From: Candidatus Mycalebacterium zealandia
GTDB lineage: Bacteria; Desulfobacterota_D; UBA1144; Nemesobacterales; Mycalebacteriaceae
NCBI GenBank assembly: GCA_014075295.1
Contig: CP046180.1
Span: forward strand, 434,001 to 498,000
Direction: 5' to 3'
DNA: 64,000 nucleotides
Shown here piece after piece: positions 16,978 to 23,966 of this stretch (positions are counted from its first letter, which is position 1; every line of letters starts with the position of its first letter). The notes beneath the pieces are model-generated. The model saw only the letters and a list, made by a program, of their open reading frames with translations. It searched no databases and was not told where the DNA came from. The translations under genes and the position numbers were made by a program.

Positions 16978-18161
16978 TGAAAGACCCGAAACAGCAACTG
17001 GAGATTATCAAAAAGGGGGCGGACGGGCTTGTTTCGGATTCGGAACTTCTTGAAAAACTGAAGAAGGGAAAACCGCTTCGCGTTAAAGCCGGTTTTGACC
17101 CGACCGCGCCCGACCTGCATCTGGGGCACTGCGTTCTTTTGCGCAAACTGCGCGATTTTCAGGATTTGGGGCACACGGTTGTTTTTCTCATCGGCGATTT
17201 TACGGCGCAAATAGGCGATCCCAGCGGCAGAACCGATGAGCGTCCTCTGCTGTCGCCCGCGGATATAAAGAAAAACGCGAAAACATACGAAGGACAGGTT
17301 TTTCCAATTCTGGATAAAAAGCGCACCGAAGTGCGTTTTAATTCCCAATGGCACGCAAAAATGAACTCTGCGGAACTTTTGCGCCTCGCGGGTATGGCAA
17401 ATGTCGCCAATCTGCTTGAAAGGGACGATTTTAAAACCCGTTACAAGAGCGGCGCGCCGATTTCAGTGAAAGAGTTTCTCTATCCGCTTATTCAGGCATA
17501 CGATTCGGTCGCCTTGAAAGCCGATGTGGAGATAGGCGGAACCGACCAGACTTTCAACCTTCTGCTCGGCAGAGAGGTTCAGAAACGTTCGGGACAGCCC
17601 CAACAGGCGACTTTGTTTCTTCCAATTCTTGAAGGGCTTGACGGCGTGAACAAAATGTCAAAATCGCTCGGCAACTACATAGCCGTAAAAGACACGCCCG
17701 AAGATGTTTTTGCCAAGGTTATGTCGGTTTCCGATAAATTGATGTGGAGATATTACGAACTTTTGAGTGCGAAAACCCCGGCGGAGATTAAAAAACTCAA
17801 AAAATCTCATCCGATGGACGCGAAAAGGGCGCTCGCGTTTGAAATAACTGCGTGGCTGAACAATGAGAAAAAAGCGGAAAAAGCGCAAAATGCGTTTTCC
17901 GGAAAGTTTTCAAAAAGGGAATTCCCCTCTGATGCGAAGAAAAAAACCGTCCAAAAGGCGAAAGTAAAAACCGTTCTTAATTTTGTGTCCGAGGTTTCCA
18001 CATCGCTTAAAAGCAGAGCGGAAGCGAAACGGCTTATTGCACAGGGCGGACTTACAATAAACGGCGAGAAATACACGGACATTGCCGCAAAACTGCCGAA
18101 AGGCAACGATTTTGAAGTGAAGATAGGGAAGAAGGAGTTTGTGAGGGTTAGGGTGGGGTGA
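16977..18161 (+). CDS. tyrS: Tyrosyl-tRNA synthetase
   Basis: Class I aminoacyl-tRNA synthetase charging tRNA-Tyr. 394 aa. The HIGH box is HLGH near residue 47, the KMSKS box is NKMSKSLGN near 225, and a C-terminal S4 RNA-binding domain begins near 335 ([18 protein letters not shown]). The spacing and length fit the shorter TyrZ-like bacterial type. Co-transcribed with gltBD. Its TGA overlaps the GTG of the first gene of a foreign-looking module. Confidence 0.95.
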
Positions 18162-19147
18162 AGACATTAAATCACAATTTGCATCAAGCCAAAAGGAATA
18201 AAAAAGATGAGTTTTATACCCAGATTGAGGATATTGAAAGAGAGCTGAAACATTATAAGAAGCACTTGAAGGGCAAGGTGGTTTATTGCAATTGCGATGA
18301 CCCAAGAGTGAGCAATTTTTTTCATTATTTTTCTTACAACTTTGAAAAATTAGGGTTGAAAAAACTGATAGCAACCTGCTACAAAAATCAGGATATGGAT
18401 TTGTTTAGCCGTCATGACTCTGACCGAGCGATTTATTTGGAGTATGAAGGGGATAAGAACAACAACAAAATCCCCGATACTGAAGAAATTGAAGTTAAGC
18501 ACCTAAAGGGTGATGGGGATTTTCGCAGTGAAGAGTGTATTGACCTCCTAAAGCAAGCCGATATTGTCGTTACTAATCCGCCCTTTTCTCTCTTTAGGAA
18601 ATACATTGCCCAATTGATTGAATACGACAAGAAATTTTTGATTGTCGGTGACCAAAACGCTATCACTTACAAGGAAATTTTCCCACTTATCAACCAAAAT
18701 AAATTGTGGTTAGGGTGTGATAATGGGGGTACAAAATGGTTTCAAGTACCTGATGATTACGATATTAAAACGGAGTCACGCAAAAAAATAGAGAATGGCA
18801 TTAAGTATTTTAGCAAAGGGAGCATAAATTGGTTTACCAATTTCGACCATGAAAAACGTCACGAAGAGTTAATCCTTTACAAAACTTATAACCCCGAAGA
18901 GTATCCACACTACGACAACTATGACGCTATCAATGTGGATAAAGTCCAAGAGATTCCGAAAGATTATGACGGAGCAATGGGGGTACCCATCACATTTTTG
19001 GATAAACACAACCCCAACCAGTTTGAAATATTGGGAATTGATAGAGTTCTGGTGAAAGAAAGAACAGGAAGAGTCAGCCGTTTTATGATTGGAAACAAAG
19101 AGATTTATGCTCGTATTGTTATCAAAAACAAAAAACCAAAGGCTTAA
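18158..19147 (+). CDS. EcoRI-type adenine-specific DNA methyltransferase
   Basis: Predicted N6-adenine methyltransferase of the M.EcoRI family. 329 aa. It has the family N-terminal DEFYTQIEDIERELKHY, a SAM-site region VVYCNCDDPRVSNFF and the catalytic motif TNPPFSLF near residue 139, followed by FLIVGDQNAITYKE. The start is GTG at 18158, overlapping the tyrS TGA (GTGA); the family N-terminus fits this start. Its base composition is visibly A+T-richer than the genes to the left, indicating transfer. No promoter is visible, so it probably relies on the gltB-gltD-tyrS transcript. The partner is the DUF262-HNH gene two bases downstream. The recognition site cannot be read from sequence. Confidence 0.88.
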   Translation: MKTLNHNLHQAKRNKKDEFYTQIEDIERELKHYKKHLKGKVVYCNCDDPRVSNFFHYFSYNFEKLGLKKLIATCYKNQDMDLFSRHDSDRAIYLEYEGDKNNNKIPDTEEIEVKHLKGDGDFRSEECIDLLKQADIVVTNPPFSLFRKYIAQLIEYDKKFLIVGDQNAITYKEIFPLINQNKLWLGCDNGGTKWFQVPDDYDIKTESRKKIENGIKYFSKGSINWFTNFDHEKRHEELILYKTYNPEEYPHYDNYDAINVDKVQEIPKDYDGAMGVPITFLDKHNPNQFEILGIDRVLVKERTGRVSRFMIGNKEIYARIVIKNKKPKA

Positions 19148-19149
19148 TT

Positions 19150-20235
19150 ATGGATATAGAACTCAAAGAAATAACAGTCCGCGATTTGGTGGCAGGCTAC
19201 GAAGACGATGGAGAAGGCGGTGTTCGTGGTTATGGTGGCAAGTTAGATATCCGTCCCCCTTATCAAAGGGAATTTGTTTATAAGGATGAACAAAGAGAGG
19301 CGGTGATTGATACACTGACTCAAGGTTTTCCGCTCAATGTAATGTATTGGTCGGTCAGAGATAATGACAATTTTGAGATTATTGACGGACAACAACGCAC
19401 AATTTCAATTTGTCAGTATGTTGAGGGTGATTTTTCTTATAAGGGAAGATTCTTCCATAATCTACAAGATGACGAAAAAGAAAAAATCTTAGATTATGAA
19501 CTGATGGTTTATCAGTGTACTGGCACGGATAGTGAAAGGCTTGCGTGGTTCAAAACCATCAATATCGCCGGTATAAAACTGACGGATCAAGAACTCAGAA
19601 ATGCGGTTTATGCTGGCTCTTGGGTTTCTGATGCCAAACGCTATTTTAGCAAGGTGAGTGGTCCCGCCCATGGCAAAGGCAGTAAGTATTTAAGTGGCGA
19701 AGCAAATCGGCAAGAGTATTTAGAAACTGTCATCAAATGGATGAAAGATGAAGAATCCATAGAAGAATATATGGCGAAATGCCAACACAATGAAAGTGCC
19801 GAACCACTATGGGAATATTTTGAACAGGTCATTGATTGGACGGAAGGTACATTCACGAAATACCGCAGGGAAATGAAAGGGCTAGGGTGGGGATTGCTCT
19901 ATAATGAGCATAAAGACAAAAAACTCAATTCCGAAGAACTAGAAAAAGAAATTGCCAACCTCATGGAAGACGAAGAGATACAGAGAAAGAAAGGCATTTA
20001 TGAGTATTTGCTAACAGGAAAAGAAAAACACCTTAATCTGCGTAGCTTTGACGATAAGCAAAAACGCATCGCTTACGAAAGGCAAAAGGGCAAATGCGGA
20101 GAATGCGGAGAGGCGTTTGATATCAGCAATATGCACGCCGACCATATCGACCCTTGGAGCAAAGGGGGCAAGACGGAACAAAAAAATTGCCAGATGCTTT
20201 GTCGTGATTGTAATTTGGCAAAGTCCGACAAGTAG
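19150..20235 (+). CDS. DUF262 (ParB/GmrS-like) - HNH nuclease fusion
   Basis: Probable restriction component. 361 aa. The N-terminal DUF262 domain has RPPYQREFVYKDEQREAVID, IDGQQRTISI near residue 77 (the nucleotide-binding DGQQR signature) and INIAGIKLTDQELRNAVYAG. A helical middle leads to a C-terminal HNH nuclease from about 313, with CGECG, the catalytic HADHIDPWSKGG, then CQMLCRDCNLAKSD: paired zinc cysteines and H-H-N residues all intact. It starts two bases after the methyltransferase stop, so the two are a unit. Known DUF262/HNH proteins include the GmrSD/BrxU type IV enzymes that cut modified DNA. Pairing with an EcoRI-type methyltransferase suggests instead, or in addition, a type II-like system (inference). 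Confidence 0.85.
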   Translation: MDIELKEITVRDLVAGYEDDGEGGVRGYGGKLDIRPPYQREFVYKDEQREAVIDTLTQGFPLNVMYWSVRDNDNFEIIDGQQRTISICQYVEGDFSYKGRFFHNLQDDEKEKILDYELMVYQCTGTDSERLAWFKTINIAGIKLTDQELRNAVYAGSWVSDAKRYFSKVSGPAHGKGSKYLSGEANRQEYLETVIKWMKDEESIEEYMAKCQHNESAEPLWEYFEQVIDWTEGTFTKYRREMKGLGWGLLYNEHKDKKLNSEELEKEIANLMEDEEIQRKKGIYEYLLTGKEKHLNLRSFDDKQKRIAYERQKGKCGECGEAFDISNMHADHIDPWSKGGKTEQKNCQMLCRDCNLAKSDK

Positions 20236-20286: not shown

Positions 20287-20709
20287 ATGATACCTCTTAA
20301 CGCAATCGGTTTGCTTTTAGATATTTTTGGAGTGTTCTTTATTGGTTGGTCTTTCTTTTATGAGTTTGATTGGAAAACCCTAACGAGAAAGAGGCGTAAA
20401 ACACAATCGACGGGATCTACTGCGAGCATTTCTCAATATGAAAACATTCCCTCATACCTTGATGGAATTCTTGGCACAGTCATTTTGTTATTGGGTCTTA
20501 TAATTCAGATTGTCGGAGTTTGGAATAACAAGGAAGTTTCGTTGCTTTGGTTACTATCTTTCCTTCCGCTTATCGTTTTCTCGGTTTTCTACTTCTACAC
20601 ATTAAGGAGAGAATTTGCGGATAGGTGGATTAAAAGGACTCTGCGCAAGAATCAAGAAGCAATGGCAGAGTATTGTAAAAAAGAGCAAGAACGAAACAGT
20701 AAGAAGTAA
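20287..20709 (+). CDS. Small membrane protein of unknown function
   Basis: 140 aa, not recognised. Three hydrophobic helices are visible (about 5-23, 60-77 and 85-103), with a basic loop after the first (KTLTRKRRKTQ) and a charged C-terminal tail rich in Lys, Arg and Glu. It follows the DUF262-HNH gene by 51 bases, shares its A+T-rich composition and is probably part of the same acquired block. No clear ribosome site precedes the ATG. A link to the restriction module is possible but not shown. Confidence 0.6.
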   Translation: MIPLNAIGLLLDIFGVFFIGWSFFYEFDWKTLTRKRRKTQSTGSTASISQYENIPSYLDGILGTVILLLGLIIQIVGVWNNKEVSLLWLLSFLPLIVFSVFYFYTLRREFADRWIKRTLRKNQEAMAEYCKKEQERNSKK

Positions 20710-20739: not shown

Positions 20740-21261
20740 TTATTTTTGAGGTCTATTTTTAATCGCATCAATTAAATCTCCTAAACAAAAACCCAAAAGT
20801 TGATTGTACAGTACCCTCTTCCAATTTTTACGAAACCAAACTTGAATTTCCATCCAAATCATTTGACTTGTTGACACACCTTTCATGTCATATTCAAATT
20901 CAAAAGAATCCTCGTCATCTCCCCTTTGTTTATCTTTTATTCTTATAGGTTTTACAAATAAGAATTCGCCTTTTGTATTTTGAAATACAGCAACATCTTT
21001 TAGGCCTAAAGTCCTAGATCCGGATGAATAATTTAACTCTGCCAAATTCAACTTGGAAACATTTTGTTTGAAATCGCCATCATTAAGATTTTCTGCTAAT
21101 GCAATACCTTTTATATCTCCCGGGTGATCATAAAAATGTATTGATTTGTTAGATGCTCTGCTCCACTCTGTTGTAAATTTGTAATCGCCGTTACCGACAA
21201 TCACCTTTCCATTATTATCTGAATAATTAAATTTCTTTTTCATAATCTTATTTTTATCCAT
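20740..21261 (-). CDS. Hypothetical soluble protein in accessory block
   Basis: 173 aa, no family assigned. The N-terminal half looks like a beta-rich domain (FNYSDNNGKVIVGNGDYKF, HFYDHPGDIKGIAL), the middle is acidic (RGDDEDSFEFEYDM) and the last 45 residues look helical. It is convergent with the small membrane gene and A+T-rich like it. AGAGGA abuts the ATG used here; an internal ATG at codon 7 (MKKKFNY) is an equally good start. Probably cargo of the acquired block. Confidence 0.6.
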   Translation of the reverse strand: MDKNKIMKKKFNYSDNNGKVIVGNGDYKFTTEWSRASNKSIHFYDHPGDIKGIALAENLNDGDFKQNVSKLNLAELNYSSGSRTLGLKDVAVFQNTKGEFLFVKPIRIKDKQRGDDEDSFEFEYDMKGVSTSQMIWMEIQVWFRKNWKRVLYNQLLGFCLGDLIDAIKNRPQK

Positions 21262-21271
21262 TCCTCTAATT

Positions 21272-21403
21272 CTAAATCAAAACCTCCGCTTTGTTTGCTT
21301 TCACAATCTCCAAATACGGGTTTTCCGTTTCTCCGCAATCAATAAAGATTAAATCCGCCGAGCAGTCCCTCAACCTTTTTTGGTAGTTTATATCTCTCAT
21401 CAT
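21272..21403 (-). pseudogene. Chimeric 43-codon frame carrying the duplicated amidohydrolase C-terminus
   Basis: The frame begins MMRDINYQKRLRDCSADL and continues IFIDCGETENPYLEIVKA, NKAEVL, which is the C-terminus of the intact amidohydrolase at 22791-23966 with one Glu-to-Asp change. It is a fragment of that gene, not a complete protein. A purine-rich AAAGGTG lies 5' of the first ATGs, so the small peptide could still be translated, but nothing supports a function. See the matching repeat entries. Confidence 0.7.
21278..21355. repeat. Direct repeat copy B (duplicated 3' end of amidohydrolase gene)
   Basis: 78 bases matching 22794-22871 at 76 positions (differences at 21320 and 21337), same orientation. 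Beyond 21355 the sequence continues for about 13 bases like the inside of crcB (near 22573-22589, one difference), with a shared TAAATC at the junction. Confidence 0.9.
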
Positions 21404-21435: not shown

Positions 21436-22314
21436 TTATTGTTCCTCCCCAATTTTCCAAACCCCCTTTTCGCGGAAAGCCGGAATAGTCTGTCTGCGGG
21501 CGGCGTTTGTGAATGAGGACGCAGAAAGTTTATGCGCTTTTATGTAGTCCGACAGGCGGATGATTTTTTCACCTCTCAGGTAGGTTGTTCTTTTATGCAG
21601 GGATTCAAGCAGGGCAAGCGACATAACTTTCTCCATGCCTTTTGTTTTTTCTTTTTCCCTGTATTCGTCAAACGCCCGGTAATAAATCTGTTTTTCATTA
21701 TTGCGTATTATTACGCGCGGAAAACCCAGAGCCAGCAGTTGGAAGTTTATAATAACCCGCCCGATACGTCCGTTGCCGTCGCAAAATGGATGAATGGTTT
21801 CAAAATCCAAATGGAATTTTGCTATTTTGTCCAGAAAATAACCTTCCATATCGTTTGAGTGGAAAATCAGGATTTCATTTATCATTTGCTCAACGTGCTC
21901 CGGTCCCGGCGCTATGTGAAATCCGACTTTTACAAATTCGCCTTTTTGCCGGAACCGCCCCGCTATGGAGTCGTCAATTCCGCTCATGAGCATATTATGG
22001 AGAAAAAGAATCAATTCCCCGGTCAGCGGAGTGGTTGCCGCTTTTTCGCGTTTGTATGCAATTACCCGTGCCAGATTTTTTGCCTCAAATATTTCCCGTA
22101 CGGACACATTGCGGGAAATTTCCATTTTCAGCAGAATTTTCTCCGTTTCTTTGAGCGTCAGAGTGGAATTTTCTATCGCGTTTGAGTTGTAGATGTTCTC
22201 CGGAGTTTCCGCATCGTCAATCAGGGTTAAAAGTGATTCCTTGCCGGCTTTCAGAAAGGCGTATTCTTCACGTAAAGACTGAATTCTTTTTCTGACAGAT
22301 TGAGAAACTGGCAT
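21436..22314 (-). CDS. Fic-domain protein, class II (self-inhibited AMP transferase)
   Basis: Transfers AMP or another nucleotide moiety to a target protein. 292 aa. The N-terminal inhibitory motif SNAIEN (residues 44-49, form [ST]xxxE[GN]) places it in class II. The Fic active site HPFCDGNGRIGR lies at 175-186 with the catalytic His, the acidic Asp and the GNGR loop complete. A C-terminal basic helical tail (about 240-292, KRTTYLRGEKIIRLSDYIKA) may be a winged-helix DNA-binding region. Upstream is a strong promoter set between two identical inverted repeats, suggesting that the protein or a partner represses it. No separate antitoxin gene is adjacent. Confidence 0.92.
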   Translation of the reverse strand: MPVSQSVRKRIQSLREEYAFLKAGKESLLTLIDDAETPENIYNSNAIENSTLTLKETEKILLKMEISRNVSVREIFEAKNLARVIAYKREKAATTPLTGELILFLHNMLMSGIDDSIAGRFRQKGEFVKVGFHIAPGPEHVEQMINEILIFHSNDMEGYFLDKIAKFHLDFETIHPFCDGNGRIGRVIINFQLLALGFPRVIIRNNEKQIYYRAFDEYREKEKTKGMEKVMSLALLESLHKRTTYLRGEKIIRLSDYIKAHKLSASSFTNAARRQTIPAFREKGVWKIGEEQ

Positions 22315-22322
22315 CCGTTACA

Positions 22323-22361
22323 AGTATACAAATTCACGCCAAAATGTCAAAAAAGCGTGAA
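22323..22361 (-). promoter_or_regulatory. fic promoter embedded in operator 1
   Basis: On the minus strand TTGACA (22345-22350), a 16-base spacer and TATACT (22323-22328) form a near-consensus promoter; the ATG follows only 8 bases after the -10 box, so the message should be leaderless. The inverted repeat TTCACGC-N15-GCGTGAA (22333-22361) encloses the -35 box and puts one half-site in the spacer, a repressor layout. Confidence 0.75.
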
Positions 22362-22384
22362 TAGAGGGTGGAAAACAGGGTTCG

Positions 22385-22413
22385 TTCACGCTAAAACAGC
22401 AAAAAGGCGTGAA
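22385..22413. promoter_or_regulatory. Operator 2, second copy of TTCACGC-N15-GCGTGAA
   Basis: Same arms and same 15-base spacer as operator 1, with start-to-start distance 52 bases, about five helical turns, so both sites lie on one face of the DNA. It sits between the fic promoter and the crcB stop. Confidence 0.7.
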
Positions 22414-22425
22414 TAGAAAACCGCA

Positions 22426-22791
22426 TTAAACCCGGTTTCCCGTCCACATTCCTGCAAAACACGCAATCAGGCAGAGGGAAACGGACAAAACAATGTTTAG
22501 CCCCGCTTTGGTTAAATTGCCGTTTTGTATGAGGTTCAGAGTTTCAAGCGAAAACGCGGAAAAGGTTGTAAATCCGCCGAGTAGTCCCGTCATTAAGAGC
22601 AAACGCATGGATTCGTCCGCGATGCGGTTTTGAAAATGGATATACGCAAGCCCTATGAGAAACGAGCCGATTATGTTCACTCCGAGAGTTCCGACCGGAA
22701 AACTCGCGGACGGAACGGCGCGGAAAAATATGTAGCGCAGTCCCGACCCCGCCGCGCCGCCCGCCATCACGCATATTAAATTCCATACCAT
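22426..22791 (-). CDS. crcB: Fluoride channel CrcB/FluC
   Basis: Small dual-topology membrane protein that exports fluoride. 121 aa from ATG 22791, whose A is shared with the TAA of the upstream amidohydrolase gene (TAATG). Four hydrophobic helices, GSGLRYIFF, the GTLGVNIIGSF pore-helix segment and GLLGGFTTFSAFSLETL, the family's phenylalanine-box region, are present. A longer frame starting inside the amidohydrolase gene is unlikely because the family begins here. No fluoride riboswitch was seen. Confidence 0.93.
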   Translation of the reverse strand: MVWNLICVMAGGAAGSGLRYIFFRAVPSASFPVGTLGVNIIGSFLIGLAYIHFQNRIADESMRLLLMTGLLGGFTTFSAFSLETLNLIQNGNLTKAGLNIVLSVSLCLIACFAGMWTGNRV

Positions 22792-23966
22792 TACAAAACC
22801 TCCGCTTTGTTTGCTTTCACAATCTCCAAATACGGATTTTCCGTTTCTCCGCACTCAATAAAGATTAAATCTGAGTCTTTTCCGGTTTCAATGCTTCCGA
22901 TTTTGTCTTCCATGAAAAGCGCTTCGGCTCCGCCGAGCGTGGCAATGCGGACGGCTTTTTCAGCCGCCGTGTTTTCTCCGAGCGGGAGCAGGAGTTTATA
23001 AAGTGCTTTTATTTCGTCAAAAAAATTGAGCGTTGTATTGCTTGAAAGCCCGTCCGTGCCGAGGCCGATTCTTTCCATTTCCGCATACTCCGGAACCGGA
23101 GCCGTTCCCGTGCCGAGAAACTCGTTGCTCCTCGGACACAGAACAACGCCCATGCCCGTTTTTTGTATCTGTTTTATTTCGCTTTTTTTAATGTGCGCCA
23201 TGTGCACCCCCGTAATCTTCGCGCCGCCGCTTTCAATTGCACGCAGGTATTGAAAAGGCGTCTCCGCTTTGTGCCGCTTCATCGGCGGTTTTCCGATAAG
23301 GGGATATATTGTTTCCTCAAACCCGTTTTTTTCGCCTTTTACAAAAGCGGTTTCTTCGGGGCTTTCCGCGAGATGAATTCCGGTCGGAATGTTGCCGCGC
23401 GCCGAAATTTTGAAAACTTTTTCAATAAGTTCGGGACCGCACGAATACGGCGCGTGGGCAAAAAGCCGCTCCTCAAATCTCTCTGAGGGTTCGGTCTGCG
23501 TATCCGTGTCCGGTCTGTTGTCCATTATTTCACGAAAAAGAACCGTCCTCAGCGGGCTGTTTTTTAATATGTCTGCGTCATTTCCGTAGGATGATATTTC
23601 ACCGACCGTTGTTACGCCGCTTTGAATCAGGGATTTAATGCCGTCAGTTACGGAACGCTCTATTTTTCCGGTGTTCGCCCCGGACGATTTTCCGTCAATT
23701 ATGTGTTTAAGCCACGAGGTGAAACTTTTGAATTTTTTTTCGGGCTTGAGCCAGCCCAGTTCAAGATGCGTGTGGCAGTTTATAAATCCGGGGGCGACAA
23801 CGCCGCGCCCGAGATCGCGGACTGTGAAATCCGGAAAACTTTTTTTTATTTCCTCCGCGCCGCCCACCGCGGTTATTTTCCCGCCGCTTGCCGCGACCGC
23901 GCCGTTTTTTACCGGCTCGCACGAAACGGGAACAATATCTGAGCAGACGAAAATTGTGCCGTTCAT
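22791..23966 (-). CDS. Amidohydrolase, probable aminofutalosine deaminase (MqnX-like)
   Basis: Metal-dependent deaminase of the amidohydrolase superfamily. 391 aa. The metal site NCHTHLELG (near 68-76), HLAESPEE, GVHMAHIKKSE and the Asp in GLGTDGLSSNTTLNFFDE are complete. The HTHLEL and GTD-SN-LN-DE patterns resemble aminofutalosine deaminases, which turn aminofutalosine into futalosine in menaquinone synthesis. mqnA and mqnD elsewhere in the window make that role likely (inference). Other deamination substrates, such as other 6-aminopurine nucleosides, cannot be excluded. Start overlaps the dapF stop (ATGA). Its last 78 bases have a second copy at 21278-21355. Confidence 0.82.
   Translation of the reverse strand: MNGTIFVCSDIVPVSCEPVKNGAVAASGGKITAVGGAEEIKKSFPDFTVRDLGRGVVAPGFINCHTHLELGWLKPEKKFKSFTSWLKHIIDGKSSGANTGKIERSVTDGIKSLIQSGVTTVGEISSYGNDADILKNSPLRTVLFREIMDNRPDTDTQTEPSERFEERLFAHAPYSCGPELIEKVFKISARGNIPTGIHLAESPEETAFVKGEKNGFEETIYPLIGKPPMKRHKAETPFQYLRAIESGGAKITGVHMAHIKKSEIKQIQKTGMGVVLCPRSNEFLGTGTAPVPEYAEMERIGLGTDGLSSNTTLNFFDEIKALYKLLLPLGENTAAEKAVRIATLGGAEALFMEDKIGSIETGKDSDLIFIECGETENPYLEIVKANKAEVL
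22794..22871. repeat. Direct repeat copy A (3' end of intact amidohydrolase gene)
   Basis: Parent copy of the 78-base repeat at 21278-21355. The two copies flank fic and crcB. Confidence 0.9.

Follow-up and report, generated by a model that had tools for sequence, protein, structure and literature searches.

Expression of a toxin-type enzyme can be controlled via operator sites at its own promoter, as in Phd-Doc and FicTA, type II toxin-antitoxin systems with Fic-fold toxins. Two class II Fic proteins in which the enzyme itself carries a DNA-binding domain are also known. CccR of Yersinia pseudotuberculosis, a T6SS effector of 380 amino acids with a C-terminal helix-turn-helix (HTH) domain at residues 295 to 346, represses its own promoter by binding a single site, AGATAATCAT-N26-ATGATAATCT, near the -35 and -10 boxes, and this autorepression was documented by reporter, gel shift, footprint, and calorimetry assays (PMC9755527). 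CbFic2 of Coxiella burnetii (378 amino acids, with DUF4172 and a C-terminal tri-helical DeoR-type winged HTH) targets a host histone and binds DNA, and it has been proposed to switch between AMPylation as a monomer and de-AMPylation as a DNA-bound dimer; its binding was assayed with random DNA only, not with a sequence-specific operator, and DNA binding by SoFic had not been shown as of the same report (PMC10628234).

The fic gene described here lies in a 64,000-nt stretch (the window) of CP046180.1 (GCA_014075295.1; positions 434,001 to 498,000, forward strand) from Candidatus Mycalebacterium zealandia. Its product resembles CccR in that a class II Fic domain is fused to a C-terminal HTH, here a predicted one, and in that inverted repeats lie over the -35 and -10 boxes of its own promoter. 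Unlike CccR, it has 292 amino acids and a predicted compact MerR-like domain, and its promoter is near-leaderless and carries a chain of other half-sites with a 52-bp period. As judged by description rather than by alignment, the two proteins differ in length, HTH position, and operator, and the present Fic family does not appear to be orthologous to CccR. With CbFic2 it shares a class II Fic domain and a C-terminal winged HTH (again predicted here), but a MerR-like fold is predicted for 292 residues in place of the 378 residues, DUF4172, and DeoR-type domain of CbFic2. The proteins of the SoFic/BT_2513 type (PDB 3eqx and 3cuc) share the Fic fold, and SoFic also extends beyond the Fic domain, while their sequence similarity to the window's Fic is confined to the Fic domain and the N-terminal helices. 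For its part, the predicted fold of Fic residues 249 to 290 resembles in topology that of the MerR superfamily (BldC, RacA, TnrA, HiNmlR), from which this domain differs in lacking a Pfam match or a significant structure E-value and in being fused to an enzyme. In Phd-Doc it is the antitoxin that binds DNA, whereas the present fic has no antitoxin gene beside it and Fic itself bears the predicted DNA-binding domain.

Operators and promoter of fic

crcB ends at 22426 and fic starts at 22314, and the DNA separating them contains the following elements:

22333..22361, no strand assigned: proximal operator TTCACGC-N15-GCGTGAA, enclosing the -35 box; spacer CAAAATGTCAAAAAA on the + strand
22385..22413, no strand assigned: distal operator TTCACGC-N15-GCGTGAA, 52 bp (5 turns) upstream of the proximal one; spacer TAAAACAGCAAAAAG on the + strand
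22323..22350, minus strand: fic promoter, TTGACA at 22350-22345, a 16-bp spacer, and TATACT at 22328-22323

The initial annotation had described twin identical operators 52 bases, or five helical turns, apart. This observation is real and correctly placed: both copies are exact, and their start-to-start distance is 52 bp. The word identical holds for the arms only, since the spacers CAAAATGTCAAAAAA and TAAAACAGCAAAAAG differ; the copies are 85% identical over 33 nt. The window has two exact occurrences of the motif, compared with none in 100 shuffles that preserved its dinucleotides, and the whole 1.16-Mb genome contains the same two copies alone, both upstream of fic. When the pattern was relaxed to TTCAC-N19-GTGAA, three matches were obtained in the genome, namely both fic sites and one within an open reading frame (ORF). 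A genome-wide repeat or regulon was rejected, the sole further site being the one within the ORF.

A promoter scan of the fic strand identified TTGACA-N16-TATACT, with 11 of the 12 consensus bases. The proximal operator had been said to enclose the -35 box of a near-consensus promoter, and TTGACA indeed falls inside it, the right half-site of this operator being situated between the -35 and -10 boxes. The -10 box ends at 22323, 8 nt ahead of the ATG at 22314, so that a leaderless fic mRNA, or one with a 1- to 2-nt leader, is plausible.

The Fic protein and its predicted C-terminal domain

The gene and the relevant parts of its product are as follows:

21436..22314, minus strand: fic, encoding a 292-amino-acid class II Fic protein (Pfam PF02661, 69.2 bits)
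22168..22185, minus strand: N-terminal inhibitory motif S44-NAIE-N49 ([ST]xxxE[GN]), invariant in a 46-sequence alignment
21757..21792, minus strand: FIC active-site motif HPFCDGNGRIGR, residues 175 to 186, with catalytic residues invariant in 46 sequences
21445..21570, minus strand: C-terminal MerR-like winged HTH, residues about 249 to 290, predicted by AlphaFold2
21496..21522, minus strand: predicted recognition helix (AlphaFold2), residues 265 to 273 (ASSFTNAAR), of which 265 and 266 covary with the half-site

fic is the sole Fic gene in the 1.16-Mb genome. Its product has two sequence features of class II, a FIC motif, HPFCDGNGRIGR, of the form HPFx[DE]GNGRxxR and an inhibitory motif, SNAIEN, upstream of the active site. 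The suggestion that fic would operate without a separate antitoxin fits, since the protein bears this inhibitory motif.

In the AlphaFold2 prediction obtained with the family alignment, residues 251 to 289 adopt a strand-helix-helix-strand-strand arrangement (block pLDDT of about 84 to 96), which is the topology of a MerR/excisionase-like winged HTH, and the domain modelled alone reached a pLDDT of 91. Its top Foldseek matches included DNA-bound BldC, RacA, HiNmlR, and TnrA, all of them MerR-like, with an rmsd of about 1.9 over 44 residues and, for so short a domain, a best E-value of 0.5, which is not significant. No HTH family or domain name was obtained for the C terminus in Pfam, NCBIfam, or PHROGs. 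Fic had tentatively been proposed to bind the operators through a basic C-terminal tail. Binding by Fic is favored by the predicted winged HTH and by the operator-helix covariation described below, but, on the predicted topology and the pLDDT of the isolated domain, the tail is probably a folded DNA-reading domain rather than a mere basic extension.

Conservation of the operator in the Fic family

The family set comprised 120 Fic sequences, that of the window and 119 relatives with 46 to 78% identity, and up to 130 bp of upstream DNA was considered per locus. A dozen phyla or more are represented in the family. Scanning genome contigs gave 80 relatives at 62 to 71% identity, whose record titles name Nitrospirales, many kinds of Patescibacteria, Elusimicrobia, Latescibacterota, Gemmatimonadota, Gamma- and Deltaproteobacteria, Rhodothermales, Acidimicrobiaceae, Omnitrophota, Spirochaetaceae, and Lentisphaerae; single taxon assignments may be wrong, since most of these are metagenome-assembled genomes (MAGs). 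Whole-genome searches added a copy from the same genus (78%), one from the same order (56%), and more from other phyla.

The initial annotation had made its reading depend on the repeats recurring upstream of fic homologues, and they were present (as either pair) in 114 of the 120 loci, compared with about 0.1 expected from mono-nucleotide shuffles. In the shared grammar, TT[C/A]AC and GT[G/T]AA half-sites alternate and recur every 52 bp; three half-sites are near-universal and a fourth is optional. Counting pairs only where both half-sites matched each other, the outward pair GT[GT]AA-N22/23-TT[AC]AC was found in 112 loci and the inward pair TT[AC]AC-N18/19-GT[GT]AA in 86. When spacings from 5 to 59 were scanned, the inward pair stood out only at 18 to 19 and the outward pair only at 22 to 23.

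Two promoter layouts were distinguished. In 67 loci the proximal site is near the ATG, at exactly -46 in 41 of them and at -47 in 12, so that a proximal operator reaching from -46/-47 to about -18, as in the window, is common to 53 family loci. In the other 49 it lies further away, mostly at -63 to -67. Within the near-ATG class, which is the leaderless one, the distal right, proximal left, and proximal right half-sites were conserved in 65, 65, and 64 of the 67 loci, respectively; the distal operator is thus better conserved in its fic-proximal half-site than in its left one (65 versus 26 loci). The corresponding values for the far class were 43, 48, and 31 of 49. The near-ATG class has a fourth half-site in 26 of its 67 loci, placed, like that of the window, 52 bp upstream of the proximal left half-site; in 24 of the 49 far loci the fourth half-site lies within the leader, 52 bp downstream of the proximal left half-site. 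On the basis of these counts in both layouts, a chain with a 52-bp period, made up of three to four half-sites (four in the window), describes the operator better than two stand-alone palindromes do. The -10 hexamer ends 6 to 8 nt before the ATG in 39 family loci; the leaderless start that had been claimed for fic is therefore a family trait, though not a universal one.

Some members of the family depart from the common pattern. A clade at about 50% identity (L113, L114, L138 to L154, and similar sequences) has the helix SHSNLINKA and half-sites extended to TTTTCACG / CGTGAAAA, and its inward pair is spaced one base more closely. Two distant members, L156 and L157, do not have the usual operator and carry TATAGGTGAA ... 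TTCACCTATA across the promoter and start.

The operator was absent from 24 loci of other Fic families (77.5 kb) and from 78 coding-region controls. A scan of 33 whole genomes for the TTCACG or TTAACG forms placed most exact matches at the fic gene of the family; an extra operator pair in one genome (G078, C109) was in front of a second fic copy, a paralogue, and a few other matches occurred in some genomes, such as G070 and G072. An all-against-all comparison of flanking ORFs at 78 loci revealed no conserved neighbor gene. The most frequent neighbor, type I restriction-modification-like, was near 9 of the 78 fic genes; other than such minority genes, no neighbor recurred, and an adjacent, co-transcribed antitoxin gene, the mark of a type II toxin-antitoxin system, was not found at these loci. 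A search of viral contigs found no relative, and the Fic proteins of phages and plasmids were all distant, with identities not above about 35% among the matches listed.

Read by eye, HsdM- and HsdR-like genes of type I restriction-modification-like character lie near fic in about 13 of the 78 loci (restriction-modification-like neighbors at L025, L031, L034, L035, L037, L038, L050, L052, L055, L068, L073, L075, and L098). In the genome of the same genus (L005), fic directly follows the amidohydrolase gene and both operators are kept; the absence of crcB between the two genes there suggests that an insertion or duplication event took place at crcB-fic in the window.

Covariation between half-sites and recognition helix

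Half-sites of the TTAACG type were accompanied by helices such as S[VI][NH]xLLNAARRQ, and TTCAC half-sites by SA[PS]xx[TFI]NAARRQ and other helices. Fitting relatives beyond the first 80 included L006 (56% identity, TTAACG, SFNSLLNSARRQ), L130, and L147, while L128 and L137 break a simple helix-base rule, having nearly the same helix and different bases. When mutual information was calculated for base 3 of the half-site over 116 loci, residues 265 and 266 ranked first and second among the 292 columns (0.56 and 0.48 bits, respectively, with 0.36 for the best other column). When base 6 (G or T) was analyzed over 101 loci, the top column was residue 276, located just past the helix.

Kinship was controlled for with a tree built from residues 1 to 245 only, which leaves out the domain, on which neutral two-state characters with similar change counts were simulated. 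The HTH columns were taken as residues 263 to 277, a range chosen after the data were viewed. For base 3, none of 300 simulations matched their lead over all other columns; for base 6, 9 of 300 did. Base 3 changes 4 times on the best tree, with only 1 change forced by well-supported branches, and an independent-pairs sign test, with 1 to 4 independent pairs, consequently had no power. A blind test on new genomes was correct in 14 of 14 cases for base 3 and 13 of 14 for base 6; it adds little, because 13 of the 14 cases belonged to the majority class.

In L167 the half-site, as read by eye, is an entirely different one, TTAATCAT..ATGATTAA, in the same 29-bp frame, and residue 276 is changed to A (RRQA), which makes this locus a candidate for a natural specificity switch.

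Proposed control of fic and alternative explanations

Taken as a whole, the interval 22315-22425 is very probably the operator-promoter of a self-repressing fic gene. We infer that Fic dimers or oligomers would bind the alternating TTCAC and GTGAA half-sites, cooperatively, via the C-terminal MerR-like winged HTH, and that occupation of half-sites recurring every 52 bp would cover the -35 box and keep RNA polymerase from transcribing fic. A drop in free Fic would be made good from the near-leaderless promoter, and the enzyme, with any AMPylation activity that it may have, would meanwhile be kept in check by its own inhibitory helix. With a built-in inhibitory helix and self-repression, fic would depend on neither an antitoxin gene nor a repressor gene of its own.

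Many repressors typically bind palindromes that overlap a -35 box, and the contact between Fic and the DNA is a putative one; a separate host transcription factor might bind the sites and control fic, with Fic itself not binding DNA. We regard this as improbable: the operator accompanies fic across many phyla without any conserved neighbor, further sites of the kind that would make up a regulon are absent from the genome, and the operator bases covary with the recognition helix of Fic above any other column of the protein. Still less credit can be given to the idea that the repeats function at the RNA level, whether as a hairpin, a terminator, or a riboswitch, or that they arose by chance or belong to a mobile repeat. 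The region does fold better than shuffled sequences (z of -2.5 and -3.3), as any long inverted repeat would, but transcription is predicted to start downstream of both sites and the scan gave nothing resembling a terminator, for which reasons an RNA hairpin or terminator was rejected. A chance or mobile repeat would also have to be reconciled with the presence of only two copies in the genome and with a position that is fixed relative to the -35 box in relatives with differing neighbor genes.

A rather unlikely explanation, though one of more weight than these, is that Fic binds the sites mainly in order to activate transcription or to switch its enzyme activity in response to DNA, repression being secondary. 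It overlaps with self-repression, Fic binding its own operator in both. MerR-like domains can activate transcription, and the inhibitory glutamate is invariant. CbFic2 provides a precedent for an enzyme switch (PMC10628234). Against it stands the arrangement of the promoter, where a near-consensus -35 box inside the site and a proximal right half-site between the -35 and -10 boxes form the layout of a repressor.

Self-repression by Fic is of a kind already known, CccR being the experimental precedent, and the present family appears to be a widespread new variant of it. Among the Fic proteins with a DNA-binding domain found in the literature, CccR is the only one for which an operator is known. 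The present family, from Patescibacteria, Latescibacterota, Nitrospirales, deltaproteobacterial, and other MAGs, has a matched operator throughout, with bases that track the recognition helix. Matched operators give specific and cheap predictions of the half-site that each helix would read, and they open the control of solitary class II Fic enzymes to direct tests. A toxin-like enzyme needing neither an antitoxin nor a regulator gene would also help to explain spread by horizontal transfer. More tentatively, it is conceivable that in this widespread, solitary family Fic acts as its own sequence-specific repressor oligomer on the half-site chain, and that its binding to DNA, besides silencing fic, determines how the enzyme oligomerizes and which reaction it catalyzes (AMPylation versus de-AMPylation), in the manner of a one-gene toxin-antitoxin-like switch.

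Other features of the region

A type II restriction-modification pair occupies window positions 18158 to 20235, with an EcoRI-type adenine methyltransferase gene (18158-19147), which begins before the preceding gene has ended, and next to it a GmrSD_N/HNH endonuclease gene (19150-20235). Two ORFs between this pair and fic, 20287-20709 and 20740-21261, gave no match in Pfam or PADLOC. crcB and fic are bracketed by a 78-nt direct repeat, 97% identical, at window positions 21278-21355 and 22794-22871, which encodes the 3' end of the amidohydrolase gene.
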